36,432 nucleotides of DNA from Deltaproteobacteria bacterium (GTDB lineage: Bacteria; Myxococcota_A; UBA9042; DTJE01), in contig JAKPTZ010000058.1 of assembly GCA_029555025.1 (NCBI GenBank), forward strand, positions 1 to 36,432. The letters run 5' to 3'. Positions 8,191 through 36,007 of the stretch are shown here, piece after piece. The notes under the pieces were generated by a model. The model was given only the letters and a program-made list of their open reading frames with translations. It searched no databases and was not told the origin of the DNA. The translations under genes and the position numbers were made by a program. Within the stretch, counting starts at the first letter, position 1; the number at the start of each line of letters is the position of its first letter.

Positions 8191-8203
8191 TCAGCAGGCG
8201 GGC

Positions 8204-8365: not shown

Positions 8366-8674
8366 CTAGGCGGCGGCGCGGGCGGAGATAAGGCCGGAAA
8401 GGATCTGGCGATCGTTCGGGAAAAGATGCTTGAAGCGCACGGTTATGCTGTCGATGGTTCCATCGCGGCGGATTCCCATGATTTCGCCAAGAACCTTCAC
8501 CGTCCTGCCGGTATCCGGAAGCGTGAAGCCGATCCAGGCGAACCTGCCGGGCGGAACGTCCTTTGACTGGAGTTCCATCCCATCGAGTCCCAGCCGTGTG
8601 GCGATTCCCGAGCCAGACGCCTTTTCACCCCTGATTTCGGTAACCGGGAAACTGATGTTAACCATGTTTTCCAT
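8366..8674 (-). CDS. PilZ-like domain protein, divergent
   Basis: About 102 residues, starting at ATG 8674 (MENMVNISFPV) with GGGAG about 10 bases upstream; longer starts at 8707 and 8821 are open but lack support. The layout fits a single PilZ beta-barrel: GSGIATRLGLDGMEL (about 21-35), in place of the (D/N)xSxxG motif, a central strand FAWIGFTLPDTGRTVKVLGE (split: FAWIGFTLPD, TGRTVKVLGE), and the typical ending VRFKHLFPNDRQILSGLI. PilZ domains usually bind cyclic di-GMP, but the RxxxR arginines and the Ser of the second motif are not evident, so ligand binding is doubtful. Could instead be a PilZ-fold adaptor. It converges with the aminotransferase. Confidence 0.62.
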   Translation of the reverse strand: MENMVNISFPVTEIRGEKASGSGIATRLGLDGMELQSKDVPPGRFAWIGFTLPDTGRTVKVLGEIMGIRRDGTIDSITVRFKHLFPNDRQILSGLISARAAA

Positions 8675-8930
8675 AACCTTGTCGCTCCCGTGAATCGCCA
8701 AAAGCATCGACGCCTTCCGATTCCGACGTCGATCCCGAACACACCGTAAATCAGGTTTGCGATCAATGCCAAAAAGACGACAGGATTTTTTTGAAGGTCG
8801 TGCCGATCCTGCCGAAAACACCGCGAATCGGCGAATCCGACAACTGGCGATTTACGGATTGACCGGAAAGCATTAAGATCCGCCGTCACCCGGGAATGGC
8901 CCGTGGTTGCGACTGTGAAGGAATCGCCCG

Positions 8931-16121: not shown

Positions 16122-16149
16122 TCGCCGCCGGGCGGAATATCCTTGCAAC

Positions 16150-16173
16150 GGGCGAATTTTCATTCGCCCCTAC
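16150..16173. repeat. R1 hairpin repeat that carries a gene's stop codon
   Basis: GGGCGAAT (16150-16157), TTTC, ATTCGCCC (16162-16169), then CTAC; on the minus strand it reads GTAG followed by the hairpin with loop GAAA. It lies in the 48-bp convergent gap between serS and the AgmX/PglI-domain lipoprotein. The TAG of its GTAG foot (16172-16170) is the stop codon of that lipoprotein. Confidence 0.9.
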
Positions 16174-16613
16174 GGATTTTCTGGCTGAAAAATGAATGGA
16201 TAAGACACCCTTGCGGCAGAGCCGTGATGGGAAGGGAACCGCCAGGACTCGATACGCCCGACAATGCACTTTTCCAGATCAGTCGAGTCTGGAATCGATT
16301 TTTCGATGGTGACTGCCGCGGTTCGCCCATTCGGCATTATGGTCCATTTAACGCGCAGGACGCCGGCAAGATCCGGCCTGTTGACCAATGCCGCCTGATA
16401 GCACTCCAAGGCGTCAGGTGCCAATTTTCGAATACGGGCGCCGACAATCTCCTTTGTGAACTTCCCGGGAACCTGAACCGGCATCGACAGAATCTTCAGC
16501 TTCGGCTTCGCCGCGGCCGCCTGCTTCGTGTTTTTCGCGCACCCGGCGCCCCCGGCCAGCGCCAGCAAAAGTGCCATGAACCAAAGCACCCACAAACGTC
16601 CGCGATAGTTCAT
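16170..16613 (-). CDS. AgmX/PglI C-terminal-domain lipoprotein
   Basis: A 147-residue protein starting at ATG 16613 (MNYRGRLW); an upstream in-frame start at 16685 would put a non-signal segment ahead of the signal peptide. The hydrophobic core VLWFMALLLALAGGAGC ends in a plausible, slightly unusual lipobox GAGC (Cys 25). The rest matches the TonB-like AgmX/PglI C-terminal domain: two conserved cysteines (ECYQ Cys 71 and EKCIVGRI Cys 116), VLRVKWTIMPNGRTAAVTIE in between (split: VLRVKWTIMPNG, RTAAVTIE) and WRFP (124-127). In Myxococcus such domains occur in gliding-motility and envelope proteins. The stop codon lies within an R1 repeat. The gene diverges from the Asp-rich lipoprotein. Confidence 0.8.
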   Translation of the reverse strand: MNYRGRLWVLWFMALLLALAGGAGCAKNTKQAAAAKPKLKILSMPVQVPGKFTKEIVGARIRKLAPDALECYQAALVNRPDLAGVLRVKWTIMPNGRTAAVTIEKSIPDSTDLEKCIVGRIESWRFPSHHGSAARVSYPFIFQPENP

Positions 16614-16745: not shown

Positions 16746-16809
16746 ATCAAATCCTTAACCATTGAGACCGGGTTATAACCGTCGTTTCAGCCTTACGGGA
16801 GTGCGCTGC

Positions 16810-21084: not shown

Positions 21085-22179
21085 GTGTCCGACAACGGCG
21101 AACAAGACAGAAGACAGACGCCCTCGCCGGGCCATATCCTTTCGACCTTCAGGCTGCTCATTGTGGCCGAAAGGCATCTTGGCACCAAACTTACCGGAAT
21201 TCTTTCCCCTTTCGGTTACCATGTGACCTGCATAGACGACCCTAACGTTGCCAGGCAGACCATTGGCCTTATGCCACCCGACCTGTTGATTCTCTCGGGA
21301 AACTTCCCAAAGGAGGAAAGCTGGAACATCCTCCGGGCGGTCAGGACCGACAGGATTACCCAGCAGTTGCCGGTACTGATGTTCTTCCACTCAATCGATT
21401 CAGAAAACGAAGTGCGCGCCTTCCAGTACGGCGTTGACGAAATCGTGGATTCCAGTTCCCAGGATATCGCGATTCGCGCCCGTGTTCGCGTGCTGCTTCG
21501 CATTTCCGCGTACAGGCGCCGGATTGAGAACGAGAAGCGGCGTCTTGAGCTTCGAGTTCAGGAACGAACAAAGGAACTGATGGAAATCACGTTTTCCACG
21601 GTTGCAGCCCTGGAAAAGGCCGCTGAATTTTCCGACCACGAGACTGGCCAGCATATGAACCGCGTGGCGGAATACTCATGCGTGCTGGCCCGCGAGCTGG
21701 ATCTTGGAAGCGAACTAATTGAAAAGATACGGGTTTACGCGCCTTTGCACGACGTTGGAAAGGTTGGGATCAGCCATGACATCCTTAAGAAGGAAGGCAT
21801 CCTGTCCGCCGACGAGTTCGAGGAGATGAAGCGCCACACAGTCCTCGGATACGAGCTCCTCAAGGCGGCCCGAGCGGATCCCGTGGCCTGCAATATCGCC
21901 CTGTGCCACCACGAGCGTTTCGATGGCAGCGGCTATCCCAACCACCTGCAGGCGAACGAAATCCCGATCGAGGCTCGAATCGTGTCGGTTGCGGACGTTT
22001 TCGACGCGCTGATCACCAAAAGACATTACAAACAGGCCATGAGACCGGACATGGCATTCCTGTGCATCACATCCGAAATGAAGAATCACTTTGATGCAAA
22101 CGTCCTGCGCGCCTTCGCGGTTCGTTTCGACGAGATCCGCGATATCTGGGCACGCCTTGACGGTACGCTTGGCGGTTGA
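21085..22179 (+). CDS. HD-GYP phosphodiesterase with degenerate receiver domain
   Basis: A 364-residue cytosolic protein starting at GTG 21085 with GGTGA upstream. The N-terminal ~125 residues have the layout of a response-regulator receiver (FRLLIVAERHLG, then PDLLILSGNF), but the position of the phospho-accepting Asp is Ser 71 and the early acidic pair is missing, so normal phosphorylation is unlikely. A coiled coil (about 140-168) links to an HD-GYP domain, which hydrolyses cyclic di-GMP: HETGQHMNRVAEYS (185-198), LHDVGKVGI (221-229), HHERFDGSGYP (275-285) and SVADVFDAL (301-309). The GYP triplet and metal ligands are intact, so the catalytic half should work. It follows purA by 81 bp. Confidence 0.93.
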   Translation: MSDNGEQDRRQTPSPGHILSTFRLLIVAERHLGTKLTGILSPFGYHVTCIDDPNVARQTIGLMPPDLLILSGNFPKEESWNILRAVRTDRITQQLPVLMFFHSIDSENEVRAFQYGVDEIVDSSSQDIAIRARVRVLLRISAYRRRIENEKRRLELRVQERTKELMEITFSTVAALEKAAEFSDHETGQHMNRVAEYSCVLARELDLGSELIEKIRVYAPLHDVGKVGISHDILKKEGILSADEFEEMKRHTVLGYELLKAARADPVACNIALCHHERFDGSGYPNHLQANEIPIEARIVSVADVFDALITKRHYKQAMRPDMAFLCITSEMKNHFDANVLRAFAVRFDEIRDIWARLDGTLGG

Positions 22180-22244
22180 CGGCCCGAAGCATTTTCGTGC
22201 CGTGAATTTATTGATTGCGGCTTTTCGGTGATACGATTTCGAGC

Positions 22245-22997
22245 ATGAAGAACCTTGACCAGATATCTGCGGAAGAATTGATTTCGGCGCTGCTGATGCG
22301 ATTTCCCGATTCATTTGCCGAGGCGGGCGTGAAGCGGGGCGAGATTCGGCAGGCACTTGCCGATTTCGACCCCGAAAGCAACGAATTGGCGTCGTCCATC
22401 CTGGAGACGATGCGACTCCTGCGATTGCGGGCCGGCCAGTTGAAAGTTTCCGACCTTCCCACCGAAGTTCAGGAAGTTAACGGTGACGCATCCCAGGCCC
22501 CCACCGAGCAGCTTCCGCCGGCCGATGTCCCGGAGGAAATGCCCCAGGCCGCGGATGAAGTTGCCAGCGAGGTAACCCAGCCACTGCCACACAAGATTCC
22601 CGGGCGGTGGACCGATCGCGAGCGACTTCTTTACCGTGACATCATCCACCTGTTCGAGCTTGGCGACCACGGCGGCGCTATGGCCTCGCTCGAGCGGCTT
22701 TTCATGCTGTGTCCGGACGCCACCGAGTTGTCGACTTTCCTTGGAAAGAACGAGGCGACTCTGCTGCGGCTTTATCGTGACCAGATGGGAACAATGGATC
22801 GCGTAACGATTCCAAGCCGTTCAAGGAAGCCGATCCGCATCCCCACCCCGGACGCCGACCTGATGCTTAAATTGATTCGAATGTCGGACGGCCACCGGCC
22901 CATCCGCGACTTCGTGAAGAAGGCCGAGTCCCCCGAGCTTCACGTGCTTCTTACCCTTTCCCATCTTGTGCGTTCCGGCTACCTTGAACTTGCCTGA
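22245..22997 (+). CDS. Unknown protein with winged-helix-like C-terminus
   Basis: A 250-residue soluble protein from ATG 22245 (MKNLDQIS). Residues 1-75 look helical, with ISAEELISALLMRFPDSF near the start. An acidic, Gln/Pro-rich linker (about 80-120) follows. The middle (125-180) is helical and may hold a TPR-like pair (LLYRDIIHLFELGDHGGAM, ASLERLFMLCPDATEL). The end, LMLKLIRMSDGHRPIRDF then LLTLSHLVRSGYLEL, resembles the terminal winged-helix of DUF4388/PATAN-type proteins and of the kinase encoded convergently at 23143. It is 65 bp after the HD-GYP gene, probably the same transcript. I do not recognise a named family; a signalling role is suggested by neighbours only. Confidence 0.78.
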   Translation: MKNLDQISAEELISALLMRFPDSFAEAGVKRGEIRQALADFDPESNELASSILETMRLLRLRAGQLKVSDLPTEVQEVNGDASQAPTEQLPPADVPEEMPQAADEVASEVTQPLPHKIPGRWTDRERLLYRDIIHLFELGDHGGAMASLERLFMLCPDATELSTFLGKNEATLLRLYRDQMGTMDRVTIPSRSRKPIRIPTPDADLMLKLIRMSDGHRPIRDFVKKAESPELHVLLTLSHLVRSGYLELA

Positions 22998-23006
22998 CGC
23001 AATCCC

Positions 23007-23114
23007 GTAAGGGCGAATGAAAATTCGGCCGCATGCCTGCCTTCCTTGTACGGGCGGATTACATCCGCCCGCTGCGATTCTGCAAAATCCGTAAGGGCGA
23101 ATGAAAATTCGCCC
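23007..23114. repeat. R1-R2-R1 repeat cluster at convergent junction
   Basis: R1 at 23011-23030 (one arm mismatch, ATTCGGCC), R2 at 23051-23071 (perfect), R1 at 23095-23114 (perfect). Both R1 copies show loop GAAA on the plus strand and are preceded by GTAA; R2 is preceded by GTAC and followed by GCTGCGAT, the same flank as R2 at 442. It fills the 145-bp gap between the unknown gene and the kinase gene, which converge. Confidence 0.92.
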
Positions 23115-23142
23115 GCCATGACGAACCTTAAATTTGCAATGA

Positions 23143-25425
23143 CTACCGACCAGTGCGGAAGCGGACGATGCCGGTTTCAAGAAGCAGGTAAACGACACGG
23201 TTCACGACGAACGGCCAGTCCCCGCCCTGGGGAAGTCCGTCCAGCAGGGCCCGGATGGTATCGCGCGCGCCAATCAGGTTAACGACGCGAAGTTCACGCG
23301 GAATCAATTTCAGTTCCTCGACGGTCACCTTGGCATCGGATGCGAACACCATTCTCTGCTGGGCGTACTCGGACATCCATGCGTTGATCATCTGGGGCGG
23401 TATCATCGTCCGCACGCCCTGGGAGATCAGTTCCATCGGATCCATGTCGTGCTGGACGACGCCCTGGGGAACCTTGACCCCTTCGAAGAACCCGCACCAG
23501 CCCTCTTCCCACGTGAAGATGTCCAGGAAGCGATCCTTGAACTGGTCGGCCAGGAAAAGGGCAAGTTCATGTGAACCGACCGCGCCGTGGTTAATCAGGC
23601 TGTCGCCAAGACGTCCCCCGCCGCTTGCCATGTCCTTCAGAGCATCGGCCAGCTTCTCGCGGGCCACAAGCTGCCGCCTGACAAGATATTCGCCAAGAAG
23701 CTCGGATTTCAGGTTCGAGAAGACGACCTTGGGCCGCCCCTTCACGAAGTAAATTTCCTTCTGGTGAACGCCCTTCTTGAACACCAGCAGACCGCTCAAG
23801 ACCTGGCGACGACAGACCCTGGTCAACATTCGCACGTTGAACCTGCGGTCGATCTGTGCATCGAAAAGCATGCTGTTGCGGTCGATAACCGGCCGAATCT
23901 GACCAAGGTGACTCTGGACGATGGAAACATCGCCAAGCCGCTGCCAGTCACCGTTATCGACCGACACGAGTTCGTCTTCGGTAAGCGCGCGGCTTCGAAG
24001 CAACGAAAGGACATTCTCAAACGAAACCGGGCCGAAAATGTTGCCGGCGGCGTCCCGAATCCGGAAAGTCGCCACCTCGGGCTTGACCTTGGTATTCCGG
24101 GTTGACTCGCGGGAAGGCTCTGGCGACTTGTCATCAATTGGAAGATCGCCGCTTTCATCGGACCCGGCTGACATTCCGATCGTCGGTTGAGACTGCTCGT
24201 GTTCCGGGGCATCCTCGGGCGGCGGCACGGCCACGGCCTTCCTGCGCCCGCCTGCCCTTGACGGCGGCTCGACCACCGGCTCTGGTTCGGGCTCCGGCTG
24301 GTCGCGATCCTCATCATCGCGCGAATCGTCATCCTCGTCGGCGTACTCGTCTTCGGAAATCGATGGCGCATTGCGAATCGCGGTTGTTGAAACCCGACCG
24401 CTGACGCCTGTCGTTGACTCCTCGCTTCCAAGCGGCAGCAGTTCCCGCTCGACCTTTTCCGCGAAAAGTTCCTTCATCAGGTTGGCAACGTCGAGCTGAC
24501 TGACCCGCAACCTTCGCCCGAAAAGATAGTCCTGGATGTCATCAAGGAATTCCTGGGCGCCTGGATACCTGTCATCCGGTTCCCTGGCCAGCGATTTACG
24601 GATAATCGAGGCGACGCCGTCATCGATCTCCGGGTGCTTGGACAGGCGCTTGTCGGCGTCCGCGTCCCTGATATTTATCAACGTCTGCAGATCCGTCTTG
24701 CCAAGGAACATCCGCTTCAGGGTCAAAATCTCAAACAGGATGATGCCAAGCGAAAACAAATCCGATCGGTTGTCGATTTCACGCCCAAGAACGGTTTCCG
24801 GGGACATGTACCCAAGCTTGCCCTTCAGGACGCCGGTCTGCCCCTCGTTCTTTGAATTGGCGGCCTTCGCGACACCGAAATCGGTGACCTTAACCTCGCC
24901 ATCGAACGAGATCAGGATATTGCTGGGGGATACGTCGCGGTGAATTATCTTCAGCGGCTTCCCGTAAGCATCGCGGGCGTTGTATGCGTACCACAGGGCC
25001 TTGCACACCTCGCCGATGATGAAAAGGGCAACCCCGGGCGGAATCGTCGCGCCAATCTTGTTGGCCCTTGCCATCACTGCCTGCAGATCGACGCCATTGA
25101 CCAGATCCATCGCCAGGTAATACTGGCCGTCAACCTGGTCGAACTCGTAAATCGAAACGATGTTGGCGTGCTGAAGCGGCGCGGTGATCAAGGCTTCGTC
25201 CTTGAACATCTTGACGAAAGCCGGATCCCGCGAATATCTGACAAGAATCCTTTTGATTACAAGAACTTTCTGAAAATCGCCCGCACCGCGGGAAACGGCC
25301 TTGAATATCTCGGCCATCCCGCCCGTTCCGATCTTCTCAAGCAGGGTATATTTCCCGAACTGCCGCGGACGCATCCTGGCCTGTTCCGGATTTTGAACGA
25401 CTGCGCTGTCCTGAACGTCCGCCAC
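23143..25425 (-). CDS. Ser/Thr protein kinase with GYF and DUF4388-like domains
   Basis: A 760-residue protein. GTG 25425 is chosen as start because a GGGGGT ribosome-binding variant stands 5 bases upstream; TTG 25431 touches the G-run, and ATG 25374 remains possible. The kinase domain (about 24-300) is complete: Gly-loop GTGGMAEIF (33-41), Lys 58 in VIKRI, HRDVSPSN (162-169) with catalytic Asp 164, DFG (182-184) and MSPE (207-210). An acidic, Pro-rich linker (about 350-450) leads to a GYF_2-like domain (about 454-505, with FGPVSFENVLSLLRS) and a DUF4388/PATAN-like region (about 528-760). No transmembrane segment is seen, so it is cytosolic. It is the last gene of the minus-strand operon, 33 bp after the small lipoprotein. 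Confidence 0.94.
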   Translation of the reverse strand: MADVQDSAVVQNPEQARMRPRQFGKYTLLEKIGTGGMAEIFKAVSRGAGDFQKVLVIKRILVRYSRDPAFVKMFKDEALITAPLQHANIVSIYEFDQVDGQYYLAMDLVNGVDLQAVMARANKIGATIPPGVALFIIGEVCKALWYAYNARDAYGKPLKIIHRDVSPSNILISFDGEVKVTDFGVAKAANSKNEGQTGVLKGKLGYMSPETVLGREIDNRSDLFSLGIILFEILTLKRMFLGKTDLQTLINIRDADADKRLSKHPEIDDGVASIIRKSLAREPDDRYPGAQEFLDDIQDYLFGRRLRVSQLDVANLMKELFAEKVERELLPLGSEESTTGVSGRVSTTAIRNAPSISEDEYADEDDDSRDDEDRDQPEPEPEPVVEPPSRAGGRRKAVAVPPPEDAPEHEQSQPTIGMSAGSDESGDLPIDDKSPEPSRESTRNTKVKPEVATFRIRDAAGNIFGPVSFENVLSLLRSRALTEDELVSVDNGDWQRLGDVSIVQSHLGQIRPVIDRNSMLFDAQIDRRFNVRMLTRVCRRQVLSGLLVFKKGVHQKEIYFVKGRPKVVFSNLKSELLGEYLVRRQLVAREKLADALKDMASGGGRLGDSLINHGAVGSHELALFLADQFKDRFLDIFTWEEGWCGFFEGVKVPQGVVQHDMDPMELISQGVRTMIPPQMINAWMSEYAQQRMVFASDAKVTVEELKLIPRELRVVNLIGARDTIRALLDGLPQGGDWPFVVNRVVYLLLETGIVRFRTGR

Positions 25426-25458
25426 AAACAACCCCCGGGGTTCGACGCATCGGCCGGG

Positions 25459-25698
25459 TCAGTCCCGACCGCCTTGAACGCCGCTTCCCAACGATTTAAT
25501 AACCGCCAGCGCGCTTTGGCAATAGTGTCTTTCAGCAAGTCCGGCCTGATCAGCAAATTCCTTCATTTCCTGGCACTGGGTCGAGCCCCCGCCACGCTTC
25601 AGGCAGACTTGATCGGCCAGCCTGGAACAAGGTTCGGTGCATGAAACGCTGACAAGGGGAAGAATTGCGCACGCAAGCAACAAAAGCCGTTTTTTCAT
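25459..25698 (-). CDS. Small Cys-containing lipoprotein
   Basis: A 79-residue protein from ATG 25698 (MKKRLLLLACAILPLVSVSC). A basic n-region, hydrophobic core and lipobox SVSC (Cys 20) are evident. The mature ~60 residues carry further cysteines in EPCSRLADQVCLKRG, TQCQEMK and HYCQSAL, which could form two disulphides in a small helical hairpin. A longer open frame starting at 25749 adds residues ahead of the signal peptide and is unlikely. It lies between the PEGA protein (78 bp away) and the kinase (33 bp away) and is probably cotranscribed. Function unknown. Confidence 0.75.
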   Translation of the reverse strand: MKKRLLLLACAILPLVSVSCTEPCSRLADQVCLKRGGGSTQCQEMKEFADQAGLAERHYCQSALAVIKSLGSGVQGGRD

Positions 25699-25776
25699 AC
25701 GACTCCGGAGTCCGACACAAAAACCAGAAGACACCACGGACGATAGCAACTCAGACCGGAACGCCGCGAGAGCAAC

Positions 25777-27207
25777 TTACTTGATGCCGCCCAGATTGAT
25801 CAGCACGCTGCCGTTCCCGGTTCCGCCGCCCTGCTCGCCGCCAGCCGTCACGCCCCAGTACGTAAGCCCGCCGATTGCGCCAAGCCCAAGCACCAGCGCG
25901 GTCCAGAACCACCACTTCTTCTCGATCCCGTCCTTCTTCTTGGCGTTTGGATCCTTGAACAGCGGACTGTTGGGATCGATCAGAAGCGAACCGTCCGGGG
26001 CAAACTCCTCTTCCTCGGAGGCAACTTCCTTGACGGCCTGAACCATGTCCGGCTCCAGCGGCGCCAGCACGGCAACCTTTGGGGGCATCTGGTTCATCGT
26101 CTTGCCGAAAATGGACTCGACTTCAGCCATGACGTCGGAATCGCGCGGGATTGTCAGATCGACCTTGCCGGAGACCTGGCCATTGGACATATAGACGCCG
26201 TTGACCAGGAAATTGTCGCCGGAAGCGCCGAAAGACACTGCCAGCAGATCGGTCGCGCCAACGAGCGTCGCGTACTGGCCCGCCTTCGGTCCGACCGACT
26301 GCGTGCCGATTGCCGCGCCGAGCTCATCGGAAGCCTTCTGAACCGCACCGGCATTATCCAGTTCAATCAGTTCGCCCATCGCATACTCGGCCGGTCCGCC
26401 GGTGATATCGACAAGCTGCGAAAGCGGCTCGTATCCATCGGCCATGAAGGTAACGATATGCTCGCCAACGACCAGGTTCTGAACCGTCACCGGCGAATAG
26501 CCCTTGAACTCGAAGTCAACATACACTTCGGCGCCCTCGGGCGAGGTCTCAACTTCCATCATGCCCTTCGGGGAGTCCATGATCTCGCGCTGGGCCGAAA
26601 GGATGAAATTTTCAAATTCCTTCGAGTACGAGTACTCGGACTTGGTCTGGTTAGGATACGCGAACAGGGACAGTTTGATAGCCCTCTTTGCCTGGGCGGG
26701 CTTCGATGCCGCGATAAATCCGATACCAAGGCCCTTGTAGATGTGTCCGACCAGGGCGCGATCCGCGTATCCCATGTACGCACGTGCCGAGTTCTCGGCC
26801 TCGGTAAAGGCCGCGAATGCGTCGGCGATCTTGTTTTCCTTCAGTAGTGCCCGCCCCTTGTCAACATTCTGCCACGCCCTGGCAAGAGCCTGTGCCGCGG
26901 CCGGAGGCATGCCCGTCGCCCTCTGGAAGCCCTGCTGGGCAAGCCGATCGGCGCCACCGCGCAGGACGACATAAACTGCCTTTGCCAGCGCCTCGTCACC
27001 GGCCGTCTTGGGATAAACCTTGACAGCAAGCTTGCGCGCCCCGGCACCCTCGGCAGCCGACGCCGAACCGACTGCAAACCCAATCAGGCCACCCGCCTGC
27101 AAATTCAGGAACGCCGTCGCGACCAAGACAGATACAACCCGAAGAAGCCGTTTTGACCGGCACATCGGCGAAATCAACGATACCCTTCTGAATGGGCTGG
27201 TATTCAT
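25777..27207 (-). CDS. PEGA-domain envelope protein with C-terminal membrane helix
   Basis: A 476-residue protein. ATG 27207 is preceded by GGAGGG at 8 bases, deciding the start. An N-terminal signal sequence or anchor covers about 20-52 (hydrophobic, ending ASAAEG, a plausible signal peptidase I site). Residues about 110-210 look like helical TPR-type repeats (GRALLKENKIADAFAAF, AYMGYADRALVG). A PEGA domain follows (215-272): MEVETSPEGAEVYVDFEFKG (split: MEVETSPEGAE, VYVDFEFKG) and VTVQNLVVGEHIVTFMADGYEP (split: VTVQNLVVGEH, IVTFMADGYEP). A transmembrane helix lies at about 432-455 (WWFWTALVLGLGAIGG), then a Gly-rich tail. PEGA domains are common in surface and cell-wall-linked proteins. The start is three bases after the stop of the kelch-like lipoprotein, so the two are tightly coupled. 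Confidence 0.88.
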   Translation of the reverse strand: MNTSPFRRVSLISPMCRSKRLLRVVSVLVATAFLNLQAGGLIGFAVGSASAAEGAGARKLAVKVYPKTAGDEALAKAVYVVLRGGADRLAQQGFQRATGMPPAAAQALARAWQNVDKGRALLKENKIADAFAAFTEAENSARAYMGYADRALVGHIYKGLGIGFIAASKPAQAKRAIKLSLFAYPNQTKSEYSYSKEFENFILSAQREIMDSPKGMMEVETSPEGAEVYVDFEFKGYSPVTVQNLVVGEHIVTFMADGYEPLSQLVDITGGPAEYAMGELIELDNAGAVQKASDELGAAIGTQSVGPKAGQYATLVGATDLLAVSFGASGDNFLVNGVYMSNGQVSGKVDLTIPRDSDVMAEVESIFGKTMNQMPPKVAVLAPLEPDMVQAVKEVASEEEEFAPDGSLLIDPNSPLFKDPNAKKKDGIEKKWWFWTALVLGLGAIGGLTYWGVTAGGEQGGGTGNGSVLINLGGIK

Positions 27208-27210
27208 CAA

Positions 27211-29202
27211 TCAATCCCTCCAGCATTCTTTCAGTTCACTGAGCAGATCATTACGCATTCCCTCTGTCAGGGTCTCGGGCGCCCCGCCGGTCATGCATTC
27301 GGGGTACATCTCGGGCGTCCACAGCATCTCGGGGGTATACACCTCGATCATGCCGGCCCCAGCCCCGTCAAGGGTATCCAGGGAAATCATGCCGCCCGCC
27401 AGGAAAATGGTATCGTCGGGAAGCGAAACGGCCGCGAAACCGGCGCGGGACAGGAACGACCGGTCACCCGCCGGCAACTTCTCAAACGCGTCGGTCTTGT
27501 CGAAGGTCGTCCTGGTTGCGTCAAACTTGCACGTGCCAAGGTTAGACACACCGGAATTACCGGCGACGCCGCCGAACATCACAACGGACTTGCGATCGTG
27601 GCTGACGAACATGGCGCCCATCGCCCGCCGCGCACAATCCCCGACAATAGGAACCATGCGCACGCCGTCCTTCTGATCCACCTTGCTGACGTTGGATGTG
27701 TCCTCGTAAAGCCGAAGCTCGTACGCCATCTGCGTCGATGAACCGATCTTGTAGGCATCCGCCTTGACCTGCTTCGAAGACTCGAACGCGCCGTAAGTAA
27801 TCAGGAAACGCTCGTGCGCGATATCGGCCGGATCGGGCATGATCTGCACGACCGAAGGGAAGAACATCTTCGGCAGGGTCTTGTCGTAGTTCAGGCTGGC
27901 AAATTCAGCGTCCGAGCGAATCTTGAACACTCCGGGGACGCCCTCTTCCTGCTTTGACGACTGGGTGAAAACTTCGATGACGCTCTCACGGTTCGTGCTT
28001 CCACCGACGATCAGGAAGCGGGAAAGGCCGCGTCCGGTATCGGGAAGACGAATCATCGTCCCGCCATTGTGCTGGGAACTCATCGCCAGCGAACCGCTTA
28101 CCGCCAGCATTCCACCCTTTCCGCCATCGGCGTAGGGTGCCCAGATTTCGGCCTTGCGGTAATCAATCGTCTGTTGACCGTCGGGAGTCGGGGTTTCATC
28201 GACCGGCCATTCACCGCCGCCTACAATCAGAACCGAGTTGTCGCCCATCCGGCCCACATTCAGGAACGCCCTTCGAAGCTCCATCGTCTTGGGCTGACCG
28301 TTCAGTTCGCCACCCTCATGAAGCGGAATCGTGAAGGTTCCGTCCTTCACGTCAAAAATCTCGATTGAGTTAAACGCGGATTCCGAGTCGAAGGAAAACG
28401 GGAAATTCCCGCCAGTCCGCATGATTACCTTGTCGGTGCCGCCGAAAATCACCACGGAATCGCGACCGCCGATGGCGACGTATGCCATGGCGTGTCCTGC
28501 GCGGGCCACCTTCATGTTGCCGACGAACTCGAAAACACCGGAAGCCGGGTCATAGATGAACGCCTTGTCAGTCGGGCTGTTCAGCTCATATTCCTGGGCA
28601 CCGTCCACTTCCCCGCGGGAGACCTTGCCGGTCAGGCCGCCGGAAACAAACACGCGCCCATCGCCAAGCCGAACGGCCGCCGGGAACGCCGCGTGAACAA
28701 ACTTCTGGGCGCCCTTGTCCGCTTCAGTCACGCCATCGGCATACTGCTGGGAAATGCAGGTGAACGAGTCGTAACGCGAAAGAACCATGTCGATATCGGA
28801 AGCGCGATCCTCGACGATATTGACGTTGCGGGCGCGACCGAACCATGAAGGATTCGAATTGCCGCCGGAATATCCCAGCACGGTGACCACTCGCCCCTGG
28901 CCCTCGCGGATGCCGTCGATTTCGGCGACGCCTTCCTCGACGTCAACCTTACTGCACTTGCAGATCGGGACATCGACGCCGTTTCTGTCCTTGACGGTGA
29001 GATTGTTCACCAGGACTCTGATCCTGTCGATCTGATCAAGCGGTGTTGGCGCCGGCGCCCCGGAGCAACTGTTGGTCGCAGCCGACACGTTCATACCGAG
29101 GAATCCCACCCCGGTTCCTTCCTCTGCGCCGTCAACAGGCCCGCAGGCCGTCAGCGCCAGGACTGGAATCATCGCGAAACACAGCAAAATTGATTTTTTC
29201 AT
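27211..29202 (-). CDS. Kelch-like beta-propeller lipoprotein
   Basis: A 663-residue lipoprotein from ATG 29202 (MKKSILLCF), lipobox LTAC with Cys 20. Residues about 30-155 form an N-terminal beta-sandwich-like region. From about 165 to 625 there are spaced kelch/galactose-oxidase-type strands ending in Gly-Gly: VFVSGG (184-189), VVIFGG (250-255), VLIVGG (324-329), FLIVGG (396-401), FLITYG (466-471, degenerate), VVMFGG (540-545) and IFLAGG (599-604). Seven strands fit a seven-bladed propeller, a fold used for binding or, rarely, oxidation; no copper-oxidase active site is apparent. The C-terminus has cysteines (YPECMTGG, KECWRD). It is 195 bp after the three-module lipoprotein and couples to the PEGA gene. 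Confidence 0.88.
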   Translation of the reverse strand: MKKSILLCFAMIPVLALTACGPVDGAEEGTGVGFLGMNVSAATNSCSGAPAPTPLDQIDRIRVLVNNLTVKDRNGVDVPICKCSKVDVEEGVAEIDGIREGQGRVVTVLGYSGGNSNPSWFGRARNVNIVEDRASDIDMVLSRYDSFTCISQQYADGVTEADKGAQKFVHAAFPAAVRLGDGRVFVSGGLTGKVSRGEVDGAQEYELNSPTDKAFIYDPASGVFEFVGNMKVARAGHAMAYVAIGGRDSVVIFGGTDKVIMRTGGNFPFSFDSESAFNSIEIFDVKDGTFTIPLHEGGELNGQPKTMELRRAFLNVGRMGDNSVLIVGGGEWPVDETPTPDGQQTIDYRKAEIWAPYADGGKGGMLAVSGSLAMSSQHNGGTMIRLPDTGRGLSRFLIVGGSTNRESVIEVFTQSSKQEEGVPGVFKIRSDAEFASLNYDKTLPKMFFPSVVQIMPDPADIAHERFLITYGAFESSKQVKADAYKIGSSTQMAYELRLYEDTSNVSKVDQKDGVRMVPIVGDCARRAMGAMFVSHDRKSVVMFGGVAGNSGVSNLGTCKFDATRTTFDKTDAFEKLPAGDRSFLSRAGFAAVSLPDDTIFLAGGMISLDTLDGAGAGMIEVYTPEMLWTPEMYPECMTGGAPETLTEGMRNDLLSELKECWRD

Positions 29203-29350
29203 GACCCAAGGTCTCCCGGTCTGTGTTATCCCCTTAGGAAACAAGGATAGATATTGCACACAAGGTTAGATTAGTCGATTGCGAAAGGCAAGTAATTATC
29301 GCCTTGATCCGTTGATTTCACAGGGGCCGGACGGTGGCTTCCGGGGCCTC

Positions 29351-29368
29351 GCCGGGACTGATCCCGGC
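29351..29368 (-). other. GC hairpin after the three-module lipoprotein
   Basis: GCCGGGA-CTGA-TCCCGGC is a perfect 7-bp stem with a 4-base loop, 30 bases past the stop codon at 29398 on the minus strand. There is no T-tract, so a classical intrinsic terminator is not supported. It may stabilise the upstream mRNA or reduce read-through into the kelch-like gene. The rest of the 195-bp gap shows no repeat of the R1/R2 family. Confidence 0.5.
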
Positions 29369-29397
29369 ATGTCCCGACAGGCTGGGCGGGCAAGGCT

Positions 29398-31881
29398 TCA
29401 GTCACACGCCCTGACGACGCGGATCGAATCGACGAAGATGCCTTCGCCGGTGTTTTCCAGCGCATCCACCGAATCGAAGCTGAAGCGCAGCCGAATGTTC
29501 TTGCCCTTGAAGGTGTTCAGGTTGATTCCGGTGACCTCGAACCAGTTGCGATAAACGGCCGATGGTACCGCGGCCTTTGAGAACACCGTGGTCGGCGTCA
29601 GCCCGTCCATCACGTCAACAACGAACTTGTCCTTGGCCGAATCGGTCTGCACGTCAACGAATACCGCGAATGAAAGCTCGTAATCACCCGTGGCGGGCAC
29701 GCGGAATTCCGGCGACGTGGCCTTGCCCCTGGCGATGCCACCGTTGTCGAAGTTGGCGTTGTCGCCGTTGCCGAAGTACATCGCGCGGGTGCCGCCGTGG
29801 AAGCGACGGTCGCTCAGATGCCAGCGAACGTCGGCCCCACCCGACCCGGGAACCGAGTCGTTGACCACGGCGAATCCGTCAAGATCGCCAAAGATGTCGA
29901 ATGTGTAGTCCGCACGGACATCCTCGAAGCAGCATCCCGGCTTCTCGATGAATTCATGCATGCACTGGTTTGCCACGCAGCCATCGGACGTGCAGTCGTC
30001 ATTGTCGTTGCAGTCCTGCTGGACGGCGCAGCAACCTGTGGCCCCGACAAGCTGGACGTCGCAGACGTTATCGACGCAACCGCCAACCCGGCAGACGCCG
30101 TCAACGCCACAGTCCGTATTGGCCATGCATTCCCTTGCCTTGCACTTGTCGTCGATGACCTTCACGTTATCGATATAGACGCCCTCGAAATTATTGAATT
30201 CCTCGTTGCCGGTCTCGAACCTGAACCTGACACGGACGACCTTTCCCGCCCAGGGCGACAGATCGACACCGACCGGAATGAACACGCCGCCGGTGGTTCC
30301 GTGAATGTTGTGCGACGACCACACGTCGGTGACCGCCTCGGTCGGCTGGCCCATCCTTTCCACGACCTGAACCGTGAACAAATCCCACTGGGCCGGGTTG
30401 TAGTAATTGGCCGGGGTCACGTTATCCCATTCGGTCGAAAGCATCAGGTCGAATGACAGGAATCCGTTATATCCGGCGCGAAGCTCAAGCTCCTGGGACG
30501 ATGCCTCGCCATTGTTCATGAACGCGCCGCTGTCATAGGTGCGCGTGACCGTATTTCCATAATAAAGGGCCCAGGCGCCGGTCGCGGACTTGAAACTGCT
30601 GGGCTGCCACTTGACCGTCTGGTTATCCATGTATGCCCACAGTTCAAAACCGCCGGCGGTTCCGTCCTCGAACCCGGTCGAAAGCAGTTCGAACTGCCTG
30701 CAGCACTGATCCTCGGGAAGCTCGGTATAGACGCATGCGCCTGCCGGGCACGAAACGGACACGCAGGGATCGCTGCTGGGGCATTTGGTCGCAACGTTCT
30801 GCGGAGTACAGACCGGCTCGACACACGCCGGCATGATCGGATGCGTGCACGCGCCCTTCTGTTCACGATTGCCGAAGACCTGGCACTTATCGTCGGTGCA
30901 GGCCTCCTCGTCGGCCGTGCACTCGGTTCCCGAATCGCACTGCGGGGAACAAATCGAGAACACCTTCACTTCATCGACATAAACGCCCTCGAACAGGTTG
31001 TTTGAACCTTCAAGCGAATCGAACGAAAGACGCAGAGCCGCCTCCTTCCCGACGGCGCTGGACACGTTGCCGCTGATATAGACGAAGACGCCGTTTGAAT
31101 TCTTGTCAACGATCGTCGAACTGACAACCAGTTCGGTGACATCGGTTTCGCCGGCCGTCGTGACGATGGACATCCGGAACTGATCCGGCTGGACTTCCTT
31201 GGGAATGCCGCCAATCATCGGTTCGGACTCGACCCAGATATACGCCGACGCGATGAAGGTCGCTTCCGCGGAACTGATGGGCGGAAGGAAGAACTTCGTG
31301 GAAGTCATCGAAGCGCGGACGGCCTCGGAATCCTTCTGCTCGGGATCAACGGGCTCGCAGTTGGCGTCAAGGGCGCCGGAGTAGTAAGTGAGGCAGGTCG
31401 GATTCCCGAAATAGGCCGACTTTGAGCCAAAGGCCCGGCGGTTGGCGGCAATCTGCCAGCCGACAAAATCGTTCGGCCTGGGATCGTTGATGGTCCATCC
31501 GGACAGATCGCCCTCGAAGTCCTCGTGGAAGTAAACCGTTTCCATGCAGCAGGCTGAATCCCAGCCGGCAACGCAGAAATTTTCTTCCCCGCAGACCTTT
31601 TTCTGGCACTGCCCAAGCTCGACCGGCGCATCGACGCAGTCCGAATTCTTCTGGCACGGCACGGGACCGGTATCCTCGGAAACCTCTTTCGTGTCCCCGG
31701 GATTAAGATCCGGCCCGACTTCCGGCACATCGGCAACAACGTCCTCCTGGCCCTGATCCCCGCCGTTATCGGGGTAATTGACATCCTCGCCGCCACCGAA
31801 ATCGGGCGTGGTATTGCCGCCGCCGCACCCGATGACCACAACAGCAATAAGCGCCGCGAAAATCCAGGAAAGCCTGTGCAT
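29398..31881 (-). CDS. Three-module Cys-rich surface lipoprotein
   Basis: An 827-residue lipoprotein. ATG 31881 is chosen over ATG 31887 because GGAGGA abuts the latter and sits six bases from the former. Signal peptide with lipobox VIGC (Cys 19), then an Asp/Gly-rich stalk (20-75). Three similar beta modules follow, at about 115-310, 395-575 and 650-827. Each opens with a tryptophan strand and YFGN or YYGN (SKSAYFGN, GAWALYYGN, TRAMYFGN) and closes with RLSFDS/RFRFET then FEGVYVDEVKV-like motifs, a MAM/jelly-roll-like pattern. Cys-rich spacers between them (CDSGTECTADEEACTDDKC; CNDNDDCTSDGC) resemble myxobacterial surface-protein inserts. Likely an adhesin or binding protein on the outer surface; ligand unknown. 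It diverges from pilM and heads the minus-strand operon. Confidence 0.9.
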   Translation of the reverse strand: MHRLSWIFAALIAVVVIGCGGGNTTPDFGGGEDVNYPDNGGDQGQEDVVADVPEVGPDLNPGDTKEVSEDTGPVPCQKNSDCVDAPVELGQCQKKVCGEENFCVAGWDSACCMETVYFHEDFEGDLSGWTINDPRPNDFVGWQIAANRRAFGSKSAYFGNPTCLTYYSGALDANCEPVDPEQKDSEAVRASMTSTKFFLPPISSAEATFIASAYIWVESEPMIGGIPKEVQPDQFRMSIVTTAGETDVTELVVSSTIVDKNSNGVFVYISGNVSSAVGKEAALRLSFDSLEGSNNLFEGVYVDEVKVFSICSPQCDSGTECTADEEACTDDKCQVFGNREQKGACTHPIMPACVEPVCTPQNVATKCPSSDPCVSVSCPAGACVYTELPEDQCCRQFELLSTGFEDGTAGGFELWAYMDNQTVKWQPSSFKSATGAWALYYGNTVTRTYDSGAFMNNGEASSQELELRAGYNGFLSFDLMLSTEWDNVTPANYYNPAQWDLFTVQVVERMGQPTEAVTDVWSSHNIHGTTGGVFIPVGVDLSPWAGKVVRVRFRFETGNEEFNNFEGVYIDNVKVIDDKCKARECMANTDCGVDGVCRVGGCVDNVCDVQLVGATGCCAVQQDCNDNDDCTSDGCVANQCMHEFIEKPGCCFEDVRADYTFDIFGDLDGFAVVNDSVPGSGGADVRWHLSDRRFHGGTRAMYFGNGDNANFDNGGIARGKATSPEFRVPATGDYELSFAVFVDVQTDSAKDKFVVDVMDGLTPTTVFSKAAVPSAVYRNWFEVTGINLNTFKGKNIRLRFSFDSVDALENTGEGIFVDSIRVVRACD

Positions 31882-32077: not shown

Positions 32078-33148
32078 ATGGGCTTGTTTGGCCAGCATGG
32101 CGGACTTGTTGGACTCGACATCGGATCGAGCTCAATCAAACTTGTACGACTGAAGCAATCGGCCGGTTCCTGGGCGCTGCAGGCTTTCAGCCTTGGGCAC
32201 CTGCCCCCGGACGCCATTATCGACGGAAGAATAATGAATTTTTCCGTGGTGATCGAGCGTCTGCGCGAGCTGATGCGCGAGGCCGGGATCAAGGGCGGAT
32301 CGTGTGCAATCGCGATTTCCGGCGCGTCCCTGATCGTCAAGCGCCTTTCGCTTCCCGAGATGACCCGGGAGGAACTGGCCGAGTCAATCACGTGGGAAGC
32401 CGAGCAGTACATCCCGTTCGACATCAAGGACGTGAACGTCGATGCCCAGATCATTAATTCGCGCGCCGGCCAGGGCCAGATGGACGTGATGATGGTCGCG
32501 GCAAAGAAGGACGTCGTGAACGAATACGTTTCGGTCGCGACCGAAGCCGGCCTTGTAACCGAAGTCGTCGATGTCGCCATCTTCGCGGCTTTGAACATGT
32601 TCGAGACGAACTACACGGTTCCGGCGGACCAGACGATCGCCCTGCTGAACATCGGCGCCAATACTATTAATGTTGGCGTGCTTTCCGGCGCCAGCATCGC
32701 CTTCACCCGGGATATCAGCATCGGTGGCAGCCGGCTCACGACCGAAATCCAACGACAGTTCAATGTGTCGTGGGAGGAAGCCGAAGCATTCAAGACCGGC
32801 GCCGAATCCTCGCTTTCGTCATCGACAATCGCCCGCGACGTCAACAAGCTGGCGGACAAGGTGTGCGACTCGATCGTAACGGAAATCCAGCGATCGCTTG
32901 ATTTCTATGTCGCGACGTCCGTAAACAGCGACATCAGCAAAGTGTATCTGACCGGGGGCTCGGCGCAGCTCCCGGCCCTGATCCGAACGCTTGAACGCAG
33001 GATGGAAGTGCCGGTTGAACTGGTCAATCCCTTCAGGAACATCGCGGTTGACGCCAGGAAGTTCGACATCGACCTTCTCCAGAGGGCTGCGCCGGTTGCC
33101 GGTGTCAGCGTTGGTCTTGCTTTAAGGCGAGCCGGGGATTCGGAATGA
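32078..33148 (+). CDS. pilM: Type IV pilus assembly ATPase-like protein PilM
   Basis: A 356-residue actin-like cytoplasmic protein that binds the PilN N-terminus and links the inner-membrane alignment complex to pilus motors. The FtsA/PilM nucleotide-binding blocks are clear: GLVGLDIGSSSIKLVRL (about 8-24), ALLNIGANTINVGVL (about 187-201) and VYLTGGSAQLPAL (about 288-300). WEAEQYIPFDIKDV (about 106-119) is characteristic of PilM. ATG 32078 is chosen because the family starts with MGLF; the frame stays open 100 codons upstream, but that region contains the promoter. Its stop overlaps pilN (ATGA). Confidence 0.95.
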   Translation: MGLFGQHGGLVGLDIGSSSIKLVRLKQSAGSWALQAFSLGHLPPDAIIDGRIMNFSVVIERLRELMREAGIKGGSCAIAISGASLIVKRLSLPEMTREELAESITWEAEQYIPFDIKDVNVDAQIINSRAGQGQMDVMMVAAKKDVVNEYVSVATEAGLVTEVVDVAIFAALNMFETNYTVPADQTIALLNIGANTINVGVLSGASIAFTRDISIGGSRLTTEIQRQFNVSWEEAEAFKTGAESSLSSSTIARDVNKLADKVCDSIVTEIQRSLDFYVATSVNSDISKVYLTGGSAQLPALIRTLERRMEVPVELVNPFRNIAVDARKFDIDLLQRAAPVAGVSVGLALRRAGDSE

Positions 33149-34029
33149 TTCGCATAAACCTTATTGGCCGCAAGGTTAAACAGAAGAAGTCCCATGGCAG
33201 CTACCAGGTGCTGATTTACCTGGCCCTGCTCGGGGTCGCCTGCGTCGTGCTGTTCCTGTGGCACCAGAGCGTGAACGACGAACTGGAAGGTTCGAAGAAG
33301 CGCGCCCGGGAAGCTGCGGAAAAGGTGGAAAACCTTATGCGCGTCAAGCAGATGTGGGAAGCATGGCAGGCCGAGAAGGCCGACCTGGATCGCCAGACGG
33401 CGGTTTTCAACGCGCTTCAGGCGGACCAGATCGGCCCGGCGATGGCGTTGCAGTACCTTAGCTATGCATTGACCCGACTGACCGACGAGGCAGCCCAGGG
33501 TGAGGAGGCCAGGGAGCAGGAGCTTGCAGGATGGAATCCGAAGTGGGATCCCAGTCGAATCTGGATTCGATCGATTGAAATCAAGAACGGTGTCGCGGAG
33601 TTCAAGGGCGAGGCAATCGATCATGAGGACGTTGCCGAGTTTTACCGCCGGCTCGAGAGTTCCAACCTTTTCAGGAACATCGCGCCGGGAACTCAGCGCA
33701 GGCGCATCCACGAGGAACTCCAGATAAAGTTCGTCGAATTCCAGGTCAGGGCCGAGGTTTCCTTCGTCGAAAGCGCGCTTGCATGGCGTGATGCCGAGGA
33801 TCGGGCGGCACGTCAGGCGGCAGAGCAGCAGTTGGCGGCACAGGCGGCGGTTGATCGCGAGGCGGCGGATGACGGCGCAGGGCCTGCCGGCGAGCCTGCG
33901 GGTGAACCGGGATCTGAACCTGAAGGTCCGGCACCGACGGAACCCCAGGCCGCACCGGCCACCCCCGAGGGTGGCACCGCACCGGCCGAAGGCGCACAGC
34001 AACCCGCGGAAAAGGGAATATCAGAATGA
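33145..34029 (+). CDS. pilN: Type IV pilus inner-membrane protein PilN
   Basis: A 294-residue bitopic membrane protein. The short cytoplasmic N-terminus begins MIRINLIG, the conserved INLL-type motif that docks in PilM, followed by a transmembrane helix (about 23-40, VLIYLALLGVACVVLFLW), a periplasmic coiled coil (45-90) and a ferredoxin-like periplasmic domain (about 135-215, IWIRSIEIKNGVAEFKGEA). Unlike typical PilN (about 200 residues) it has a 70-residue C-terminal tail rich in Pro, Ala, Glu and Gly, probably disordered in the periplasm. The start overlaps the pilM stop and the stop overlaps the pilO start, both ATGA, so the set is translationally coupled. Confidence 0.93.
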   Translation: MIRINLIGRKVKQKKSHGSYQVLIYLALLGVACVVLFLWHQSVNDELEGSKKRAREAAEKVENLMRVKQMWEAWQAEKADLDRQTAVFNALQADQIGPAMALQYLSYALTRLTDEAAQGEEAREQELAGWNPKWDPSRIWIRSIEIKNGVAEFKGEAIDHEDVAEFYRRLESSNLFRNIAPGTQRRRIHEELQIKFVEFQVRAEVSFVESALAWRDAEDRAARQAAEQQLAAQAAVDREAADDGAGPAGEPAGEPGSEPEGPAPTEPQAAPATPEGGTAPAEGAQQPAEKGISE

Positions 34030-34733
34030 ACAAGTTTTTTGATCTTCCGCTGATTCAGCGAATTCTGATCGTTGCGATTGCGCTTGCGGTCGTCACGGGC
34101 GGCGGCTTTTATCTGCTGGTTCTTCCGACCAGCCAGGCAATCAGCCGCGAACAGATCAAGCTGAAGAACACGATGAATGAATACTCGAAGCTGCGTGAAT
34201 ACGACGCGCCCGAGTTCAAGCAGGAAATGGATCGACAGAAGGCCGAGGCCGTCAAGCAGCGCGAGGCTTACGCGAAGATGCTGCCGCGCGAGGACGAGCT
34301 TCCCGACCTGATTGATGCCCTGAAGCGCGAGGCCGACAACTCCGGCCTTGCCCTGACCAGGTTTGAGCCGAACAAGGAAGGCGAGGTCGGCGACGGATAC
34401 CGCGGACTGGCGTTCGATGTCGAGATGATTGGGTCGTATCACCAGATTGTGACTTTCATGAACAACCTGGCAGCGCCGTCCAAGCGCATCATCAACGCGA
34501 AAAATCTGAACATTCAGCTTGTCCCGTCCGACCAGCTTCAGAAGAGCGCCGGCGACGTGGGCATGCTTCGCGTGATCATGGAACGCGAGACGGCACGCGG
34601 ACTTACGCCAACGGAAAAGTACGCGAAGGCCGTGCTGCTGTTTGACGACATTGCCAAGCGCCGGCTTCTGAAAGTGACCTTCACCGCGATGGCCTATGTA
34701 TATACCGGTGAACGCGCCCCGACGGCGCCGTGA
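34026..34733 (+). CDS. pilO: Type IV pilus inner-membrane protein PilO
   Basis: A 235-residue partner of PilN. One N-terminal transmembrane helix (about 12-33, ILIVAIALAVVTGGGFYLLV), a periplasmic coiled coil (about 36-85, with heptad-like KLKNTMNEYSKLREY), and a ferredoxin-like domain, where LPDLIDALKREADNSGLAL (about 93-111) and MIGSYHQIVTFMNNLA (about 135-150) match the family. It forms the PilN-PilO heterodimer that couples PilM to PilP. ATG overlaps the pilN stop; pilP begins 12 bases after its own stop. Confidence 0.94.
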   Translation: MNKFFDLPLIQRILIVAIALAVVTGGGFYLLVLPTSQAISREQIKLKNTMNEYSKLREYDAPEFKQEMDRQKAEAVKQREAYAKMLPREDELPDLIDALKREADNSGLALTRFEPNKEGEVGDGYRGLAFDVEMIGSYHQIVTFMNNLAAPSKRIINAKNLNIQLVPSDQLQKSAGDVGMLRVIMERETARGLTPTEKYAKAVLLFDDIAKRRLLKVTFTAMAYVYTGERAPTAP

Positions 34734-34745
34734 TTGGGGGTAAAC

Positions 34746-35345
34746 GTGAAGCGTAACCTGTTGATGCTTTTTGTGGTTGCCGTCGCGTTCACTGCTTGTG
34801 GAAGCGACAGCCCGATGCTTGCGGCGATCACTCCGACCCAGGAAGACCTGAACAAGGCCGCAAACAAGGTTCTTGGCGGGGTTCCCCAGGCAGCGCAGGC
34901 CGCCGAGGCCGTTCCTGCCGCGGTTACCGGCCCAGTCGGGATCCGTAAGTACTACTTCGATTACCTGCACACGCCGGTCGAGGCCAAGATCAATCCGTTC
35001 CAGTCGAACATGGCAGCGTTCACGCCCACGGTCGAGATCGAAGCGGATGTCGTTGCCGAGGAGACTGGCCCGGTAACCCCCCTTCAGTACTACGATACCG
35101 ATTCGTACAAGCTGGTTCTGATCATGTCGGGCACCGCGATTCCAAAGGCGCTGGTCAGCGATCCGCAGGGTAAATCGTACGTCATCATGGTGGATACGGC
35201 GATTGGCAACCGTCAGGGCCGGGTTGTTTCGATTACCGCCAACGAAGTCCGAATTGATGAACCTGGATTCCCGCCGGTCGTCAAGACGCTTGGCACCGAT
35301 CGCGAAGACATGATCAAGGAACTTCAGTCCGTCCAGGAATTCTGA
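34746..35345 (+). CDS. pilP: Type IV pilus lipoprotein PilP
   Basis: A 199-residue inner-membrane lipoprotein that joins PilN-PilO to the secretin PilQ. GTG 34746 is chosen because GGGGGT ends four bases before it and it gives a clean signal peptide, MKRNLLMLFVVAVAFTAC, with lipobox FTAC (Cys 18); a TTG at 34734 is the longer alternative. After a flexible linker comes the beta-sandwich domain: PLQYYDTDSYKLVLIMSGTA (about 98-117), ALVSDPQGKSYVIMVDTAIG (about 121-140), then GRVVSITANEVRIDEPG, the classical PilP motif. pilQ does not follow; the next gene is an FHA protein, so the secretin must be encoded elsewhere or farther on. Confidence 0.93.
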   Translation: MKRNLLMLFVVAVAFTACGSDSPMLAAITPTQEDLNKAANKVLGGVPQAAQAAEAVPAAVTGPVGIRKYYFDYLHTPVEAKINPFQSNMAAFTPTVEIEADVVAEETGPVTPLQYYDTDSYKLVLIMSGTAIPKALVSDPQGKSYVIMVDTAIGNRQGRVVSITANEVRIDEPGFPPVVKTLGTDREDMIKELQSVQEF

Positions 35346-35458: not shown

Positions 35459-36007
35459 TTGGATTCGGTTGCCTGCCTTATCAAGTTCAGGGTTGTCGGC
35501 GGCCCCGACGCGGGACTTGAAGTCCGCATGGATTCGGAACCGGTTTCGATTGGACGCGATTCCGGGTGCGACGTCGTTCTTACGGACCCAACCGTTTCGC
35601 GCAGCCACATGAAGCTGGAACGCATCGACGGGCGCTGGTACCTGCAGCACCTTGCGCCGGGCAACCAGACCCACGTCAACGGCCGGCCGGTGATCGTCAC
35701 AGATCCCCCCACGGCGCTGAAGTGCGGCGACCGGATATCGTTCGGCGCGAGCGTCATGGTGGTCGAGTTCCGGCACACCGGCCTGACCGACGCCAGTCGA
35801 GACCCTGGCATTGCGGCCGACGCGGTCGATGGAATTCCGCTTGATGCATCGATCAAGCTGGGTGCGCCGCCGGCGCTTCGCCCGCCCGAGATCGAGCCCG
35901 CCACCCGGTTGCCATCGGCCACACTTCGCAGGCTTGCCGCACCCGTTGCGGCGTTGACCCTTGCCCTGCTCTTCCTTGCGGCAATCCTTCTGCGTTCGTG
36001 CGAGTGA
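35459..36007 (+). CDS. FHA-domain protein with C-terminal membrane anchor
   Basis: A 182-residue protein from TTG 35459, supported by GGGGGT four bases upstream; no ATG exists before the domain. The FHA domain (about 5-102) is intact: VSIGRDSGCDVVLTDPTVSRSH (split: VSIGRDSGCDV, VLTDPTVSRSH; 29-50), LAPGNQTHVNGRPV, and FGASVMVVEF. Arg 33, Ser 48 and His 50 and the Asn-Gly pair should bind phosphothreonine. A ~45-residue linker leads to one C-terminal transmembrane helix (about 158-178, VAALTLALLFLAAILL), ending CE. It is thus a tail-anchored phosphopeptide reader facing the cytoplasm. It lies 113 bp after pilP and may be cotranscribed with the pilus genes. Confidence 0.87.
   Translation: MDSVACLIKFRVVGGPDAGLEVRMDSEPVSIGRDSGCDVVLTDPTVSRSHMKLERIDGRWYLQHLAPGNQTHVNGRPVIVTDPPTALKCGDRISFGASVMVVEFRHTGLTDASRDPGIAADAVDGIPLDASIKLGAPPALRPPEIEPATRLPSATLRRLAAPVAALTLALLFLAAILLRSCE

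Follow-up and report, generated by a model that had tools for sequence, protein, structure and literature searches.

A kelch propeller lipoprotein and a TPR-PEGA protein encoded side by side: a probable two-gene envelope module in Myxococcota-related bacteria

Gene layout of the locus

The window, by which we mean the whole stretch of DNA analysed, is an entire contig of 36,432 bases and belongs to a 3.49-Mb draft genome. The PilM protein encoded in it shares 75–82% identity with its counterparts in several draft genomes labelled as uncultured 'Myxococcales' or 'Deltaproteobacteria'. A first-pass annotation of this DNA had drawn attention to a run of five genes on the minus strand, which we found at the positions given there and with the same gaps of 195, 3, 78 and 33 bp (Table 1). 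The lipoboxes of the three lipoproteins that it predicted are likewise present in the sequence, and pilM, pilN, pilO and pilP do diverge from the run on the plus strand. For the MAM lipoprotein the annotation took the second ATG (31881) as the start; the ORF reaches 31887.

Table 1. Features of the window around the kelch-PEGA gene pair
Feature	Coordinates	Strand	Evidence or remark
Core: kelch beta-propeller lipoprotein, 663 aa	27211..29202	-	Lipobox LTAC (C20), Kelch_6, Kelch_4, AF2 fold
Core: TPR-PEGA protein, 476 aa	25777..27207	-	PEGA domain, signal peptide, model
Family-level neighbour: lipoprotein with MAM-like repeats and Cys-rich linkers, 829 aa	29398..31887	-	Lipobox VIGC, InhA-like MAM
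Optional small Cys-rich lipoprotein, 79 aa	25459..25698	-	Lipobox SVSC
Family-level neighbour: cytosolic Ser/Thr kinase, 760 aa, with GYF-like and DUF4388 parts and MshEN-like c-di-GMP motif	23143..25425	-	
Divergent pilM, pilN, pilO, pilP	32078..35345	+	Linked to the kelch-PEGA pair only in part of f1
FHA / YscD-like cytoplasmic domain gene, 3' of pilP	35459..36007	+	
Convergent neighbours conserved in f1: response regulator-HD protein and 260-aa protein	21085..22997	+	
Two copies of the GGGCGAATTTTCATTCGCCC-type intergenic palindrome, closing the five-gene run	23005..23117	.	

The kelch gene may have a promoter of its own in the 195-bp gap that precedes it. A promoter scan there gave nothing decisive, while neither an RNA structure beyond chance (z -0.19) nor a match to any Rfam family was found in the same gap.

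Several other features of the window deserve mention. The intergenic palindrome GGGCGAATTTTCATTCGCCC occurs, with a companion CGGGCGGATTACATCCGCCCG, at 412-602, 3437-3465, 8203-8231, 16149-16177 and 23005-23117; its core has eight matches at two or fewer mismatches, against 0.08 expected, and is REP-like, with two copies directly after the kinase gene. No pilQ was noticed in the pilM-pilP block, and the FHA / YscD-like gene stands where one would look for pilQ; its counterparts in relatives encode about 650 residues (L033:17587-19539). Finally, an ORF of 551 residues (16762-18417) begins like a lipoprotein, contains a repetitive Asp/Ala/Thr region, encoded by a 9-bp repeat (16972-17065), and gave no Pfam match.

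The kelch lipoprotein

The kelch protein matches the Pfam domains Kelch_6 (E = 2e-10), Kelch_4 and Kelch_1 above their cut-offs. An N-terminal beta-sandwich, flanked by two near-invariant cysteines, C46 and C149, is followed by the kelch propeller. The AF2 model (mean pLDDT 82, pTM 0.87), when compared by Foldseek with the PDB, finds kelch and galactose-oxidase propellers as its best folds, with E-values down to 3e-13. In the alignment the lipobox cysteine, C20, is invariant in all 34 proteins, and C46 and C149 are conserved in 97% and 94% of them, respectively. The lipoprotein may reside in the outer membrane.

The copper site of galactose oxidase is built from Tyr, His and Cys ligands, among them an adjacent Tyr-His pair. 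When such a site was sought in the kelch alignment, no Tyr or His proved invariant, and Tyr or His columns conserved at 70% or more were limited to H237, Y348, H529 and Y622, no two of which are adjacent. A copper radical oxidase of the galactose oxidase type was therefore rejected, the copper ligands not being conserved in the kelch family. As no conserved copper site is present, an oxidase function is unlikely and, judged from the sequences, a binding role is the likely one.

The TPR-PEGA protein

PEGA is described in PMC2447325 as a 70-residue domain of archaeal and bacterial cell-surface proteins. The window protein matches the corresponding Pfam entry (PF08308) with 40.8 bits against a cut-off of 20.8 (E = 2e-10). 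Its N-terminal helix, as seen in the alignment, is a signal peptide closed by a conserved AxA signal-peptidase-like site. The model, with a mean pLDDT of 80.5 and a core above 90, consists of a strand (58-66), a helix (69-92), TPR helices (approximately 102-211), the PEGA domain (214-279) and then helices and three strands up to residue 371, after which come a low-confidence linker, a WWFW helix (432-450) and a terminal strand. The TPR helices and the PEGA domain are thus modelled as an insertion between the halves of a split alpha/beta domain.

Past the single C-terminal helix there remain about 20 residues, and 25 at most; the mean net charge around this helix is +0.9 before it and -0.2 after it. 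The first-pass annotation had seen in the PEGA protein a bridge across the membrane. With an AxA site after the N-terminal helix and so short a tail after the C-terminal one, a signal output through PEGA to the cytosolic kinase is not evident, and we do not retain that view.

The terminal strand alternates hydrophobically in 34 of 35 orthologous PEGA tails, where shuffled sequences would give 2.7. Among the PEGA proteins of non-orthologous pairs, 25 of 30 end in tryptophan (for example ...GFEAEVSW), against a background of 1.1%. We know of no cytoplasmic function for a C-terminal tail of this kind. Such a strand, placed behind a glycine-rich membrane helix and closed by W in most families, is reminiscent of the strand at the C terminus by which outer-membrane proteins are sorted, and is in itself a conserved, unexplained sorting or docking feature. 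It might hand the PEGA protein to the outer membrane or to BAM, or else be donated to the kelch partner, and the result would then be a tether of the outer membrane whose membrane part is alpha-helical and which is built or checked by the lipoprotein propeller. We regard this scheme as improbable.

Conservation of the gene pair

To assess conservation of the locus, the PEGA, kelch and MAM proteins were used as queries against 53 related genomes, and gene neighbours were compared in stretches around 40 PEGA genes; families are labelled f1 (that of the window), f2 and so on. The kelch and PEGA orthologues are adjacent, on the same strand and in the order seen in the window, in all 36 loci of the class where both genes could be read. 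The gap between them has a median of 13 bp and is 50 bp or less in 28 of the 36, with some genes overlapping. Paralogous pairs are found within the class in G003, G004, G005, G007, G009, G011 and G016, and also in the window's own genome, where one contig (G000:C4) carries two of them in tandem. The paralogous pair of f1 has infC, rplT and an IHF-like gene as its neighbours (L131-L135). At 21 loci outside f1 (L042 and L058, for example), the kelch gene is mostly preceded by one for a lipoprotein of about 228 residues, with no Pfam match, which may be a third partner of the pair at the level of the class.

Profiles of both proteins were also run over 141 genomes of the phylum, and 20 places were then read. 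Outside the class, f19, f30 and f14 have PEGA-kelch pairs in the opposite gene order, PEGA almost always preceding kelch: this was so for 13 of 13 testable loci in f19 and five of five in f30. Since the loci read first had mostly been picked for matches to both profiles, it should be noted that the six f19 loci matched by both, all of them adjacent pairs, were complemented by a second draw picked by PEGA alone. In that draw a kelch lipoprotein adjoins the PEGA gene in all seven further f19 loci with downstream sequence and in all three f30 loci; four further loci stop at a contig end, and one of two f6 paralogues has an adjoining kelch gene. Pfam confirms both domain types in the non-orthologous pairs, the PEGA domain in G009 lying just below the cut-off. 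By a hand count, at least 17 of about 58 non-orthologous kelch loci adjoin a PEGA gene among the matches listed, compared with an expectation of 1.4–3% (P < 1e-12), the lower figure assuming some 14 PEGA genes in 4 Mb. The Pfam entry PF13964 was too insensitive to be used for counting kelch genes. Some kelch genes of the same type have no PEGA gene among the listed matches (for example G017:C7 and G139:C44), so that the kelch part evidently also exists alone.

The two proteins appear to have diverged together. Trees were built from 53 paired proteins, and for both partners the orthologues and the members of f19 pairs form separate clades, with support of 0.95–1.0; the 'infC' paralogues of f1 make up a single clade for kelch and fall into two groups for PEGA. 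Locus types thus separate largely in step in the two trees. Kelch and PEGA distances correlate at 0.94 when all pairs are taken and at 0.91 among the orthologues, values which are inflated by the shared species tree, and the informative part of the co-divergence is the parallel split of pair types inside the same genomes.

Neighbouring genes

The MAM lipoprotein, recognised by an InhA-like MAM match (E = 4e-7), has an orthologue upstream of the pair in 10 of 11 testable f1 genomes, but shows no linkage in G006 or in f2, the sister family. The kinase lies downstream of the PEGA gene in all 11. The small lipoprotein is encoded in three of 11 f1 loci, including that of the window (G000, G001 and G004), whereas in G002, G003, G008 and G009 the gap between PEGA and kinase genes is only 31–43 bp and contains no ORF. 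Elsewhere in the class neither a MAM nor a kinase orthologue adjoins the pair: homologues of the kinase occur across the class but at other places, 15–18 kb away on the same contig in four f6 genomes. The proposal that the five genes make up a single system must accordingly be narrowed. Linkage of kelch and PEGA goes beyond chance and bears out the idea of an undescribed, conserved envelope gene set at this place; that of the other members, though real, is confined to f1. What was taken for a five-gene system is a two-gene core with family-specific neighbours.

The kinase contains Pkinase (2e-39) and DUF4388 (7e-10) domains along with a GYF_2 match below threshold. Its Gly-loop, VIK, HRD and DFG motifs are intact in all 11 aligned f1 orthologues, and no membrane helix is evident in it. 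A match of its DUF4388 part to the MshEN-type c-di-GMP motif NF053729 (42.1 bits, cut-off 38) suggests that the kinase is possibly responsive to c-di-GMP; the motif region is absent in G002. A PADLOC assignment as an anti-phage kinase (PD-T4-6) was rejected, all matches shown covering the generic kinase domain only. Kinases number 22 in the window's genome and 50 in G017. The f6 pair has a divergent neighbourhood made up of another Ser/Thr kinase, which bears its own PEGA domain, and a TPR-PEGA-like gene (L058:13116-16082 and other f6 loci). This is a second, independent kinase-PEGA neighbourhood, so that recruitment of a kinase close to the pair has taken place on two or more occasions.

The window also holds an HD-domain response regulator (21085-22179) and a PilZ-like ORF just below the cut-off (8366-8821), as well as pilMNOP. 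It is plausible that the kinase, the HD protein and the FHA protein by pilMNOP constitute an f1-specific regulatory block round the pilus genes, separate from the pair. The kinase, the HD regulator, the PilZ-like ORF and pilMNOP could possibly serve as a block for control by c-di-GMP and phosphorylation.

Alternative interpretations

Could the five genes nevertheless be a signalling route, with surface lipoproteins as its binding part and the PEGA protein as the relay to the cytosolic kinase? The invariable position of the kinase in f1, at 31–43 bp in four of its genomes, its intact catalytic motifs and the different, PEGA-bearing kinase beside the f6 pair are all in keeping with such a route. 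Yet a kinase orthologue is found beside the pair in f1 only, no membrane helix is evident in the kinase, the PEGA tail has 25 residues at most, the small lipoprotein is optional and kinases are so common that one would fall near a given locus by chance in some 4–5% of cases, and we think this reading quite unlikely. It is slightly harder still to see the pair as an accessory that places or regulates the type IV pilus of the divergent pilMNOP. That role, or one in surface contact as the first-pass annotation hinted, draws on the neighbourhood in f1, where pilMNOP diverges from the pair in seven genomes and where the same block also encodes the HD and FHA proteins and the kinase that carries the MshEN-like motif. 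No constant linkage or co-occurrence of the pair with pil genes was found in the class, however: pilM lies elsewhere in its other families, three f10 genomes (85–94% complete) have the pair but give no PilM match, and the f19 pair sits near quite different genes. A pilus accessory is thus very unlikely.

Those genes in f19, mraZ-rsmH-ftsL-pbp of the dcw cluster, lie approximately 0.7–3 kb from the pair in four of six loci (L121, L122, L127 and L129), and they bear on another reading, that the pair is an Lpo-type regulator of peptidoglycan synthesis or division, the alpha/beta domain of the PEGA protein activating a synthase while the kelch lipoprotein anchors PEGA to the outer membrane. The 50 best PDB fold matches of the PEGA model include three LpoB entries, and the TPR content recalls LpoA, which has TPR-like helices. 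The LpoB matches are not significant, though (Foldseek E 0.07–0.2, probability 0.66–0.89), proximity to dcw genes is not seen in the window's own class, and no conserved PBP-binding residue is known in the pair. We judge an Lpo-type role unlikely, if the least so of the alternatives considered here. There is also the null case of two common envelope families without a joint function that have simply remained neighbours on the chromosome, as the conserved gene order around house-keeping genes in f1 might suggest. But adjacency holds in both gene orders, at unlinked paralogous loci and in several families where all other neighbours have changed, which leaves this the least credible explanation of all.

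A two-gene envelope module

The kelch lipoprotein and the PEGA protein are, then, probably parts of one undescribed envelope module. The export signals, membrane anchors and folds of the two, and the constancy of their neighbourhood, are supported by sequence and models: the kelch gene is predicted to give an exported, lipid-anchored propeller, and the PEGA gene an exported TPR/PEGA/alpha-beta protein that closes with a membrane helix and a short beta strand. Their tight spacing, their adjacency in both orders and their co-divergence suggest that both genes are probably carried on one message and that the products bind each other; a physical partnership is, on this genomic evidence, somewhat probable. 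The likeliest mechanism, though more tentative and in itself less probable than not, is that propeller and TPR-PEGA protein act as a scaffold at the membrane-periplasm interface, docking and positioning an envelope machine. The machine might be one for wall-synthesis activation of the Lpo kind, one for assembly of the BAM kind, which analogy and the terminal strand may hint at, or another. In the window's family a MAM lipoprotein would have been added upstream and a possibly c-di-GMP-responsive kinase downstream; both could adjust the module while standing outside its core, and kinase signalling with the pair, though possible, would be secondary.

Many PEGA and kelch proteins of Myxococcota-related lineages have no known role, and the pair gives a handle on them. 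If the scaffold is real, it would be a component of outer-membrane or cell-wall assembly that Escherichia coli lacks; the control genomes in which PEGA was matched do not include E. coli.

Comparison with known systems

In the open literature searched, the PEGA-kelch pair was not found described. One of its closest analogies may be in the BAM complex, where the beta-propeller lipoprotein BamB works with the TPR protein BamD at the outer membrane. The pairing of a propeller lipoprotein with a TPR protein is what the two systems would have in common. The Pfam and NCBIfam models for BamB and BamD do not match the pair proteins; the propeller here is of kelch type, the TPR protein is no lipoprotein but has a PEGA domain, an alpha/beta domain and a C-terminal helix, and the genes are adjacent, with no link to bamA seen. 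LpoB offers weak fold matches to the PEGA protein and LpoA comparable TPR-like helices, but the window's PEGA protein is anchored through a helix at its C terminus and is constantly accompanied by a kelch lipoprotein. With galactose oxidase and other kelch propellers the window protein shares the propeller fold, from which it differs in being lipid-anchored. The kinase shares DUF4388 and an MshEN-like motif with Ser/Thr kinases of that type, and is a neighbour of the pair at family level only. Lastly, the description of the PEGA domain (PF08308) covers the domain alone and not a module with a linked kelch lipoprotein.
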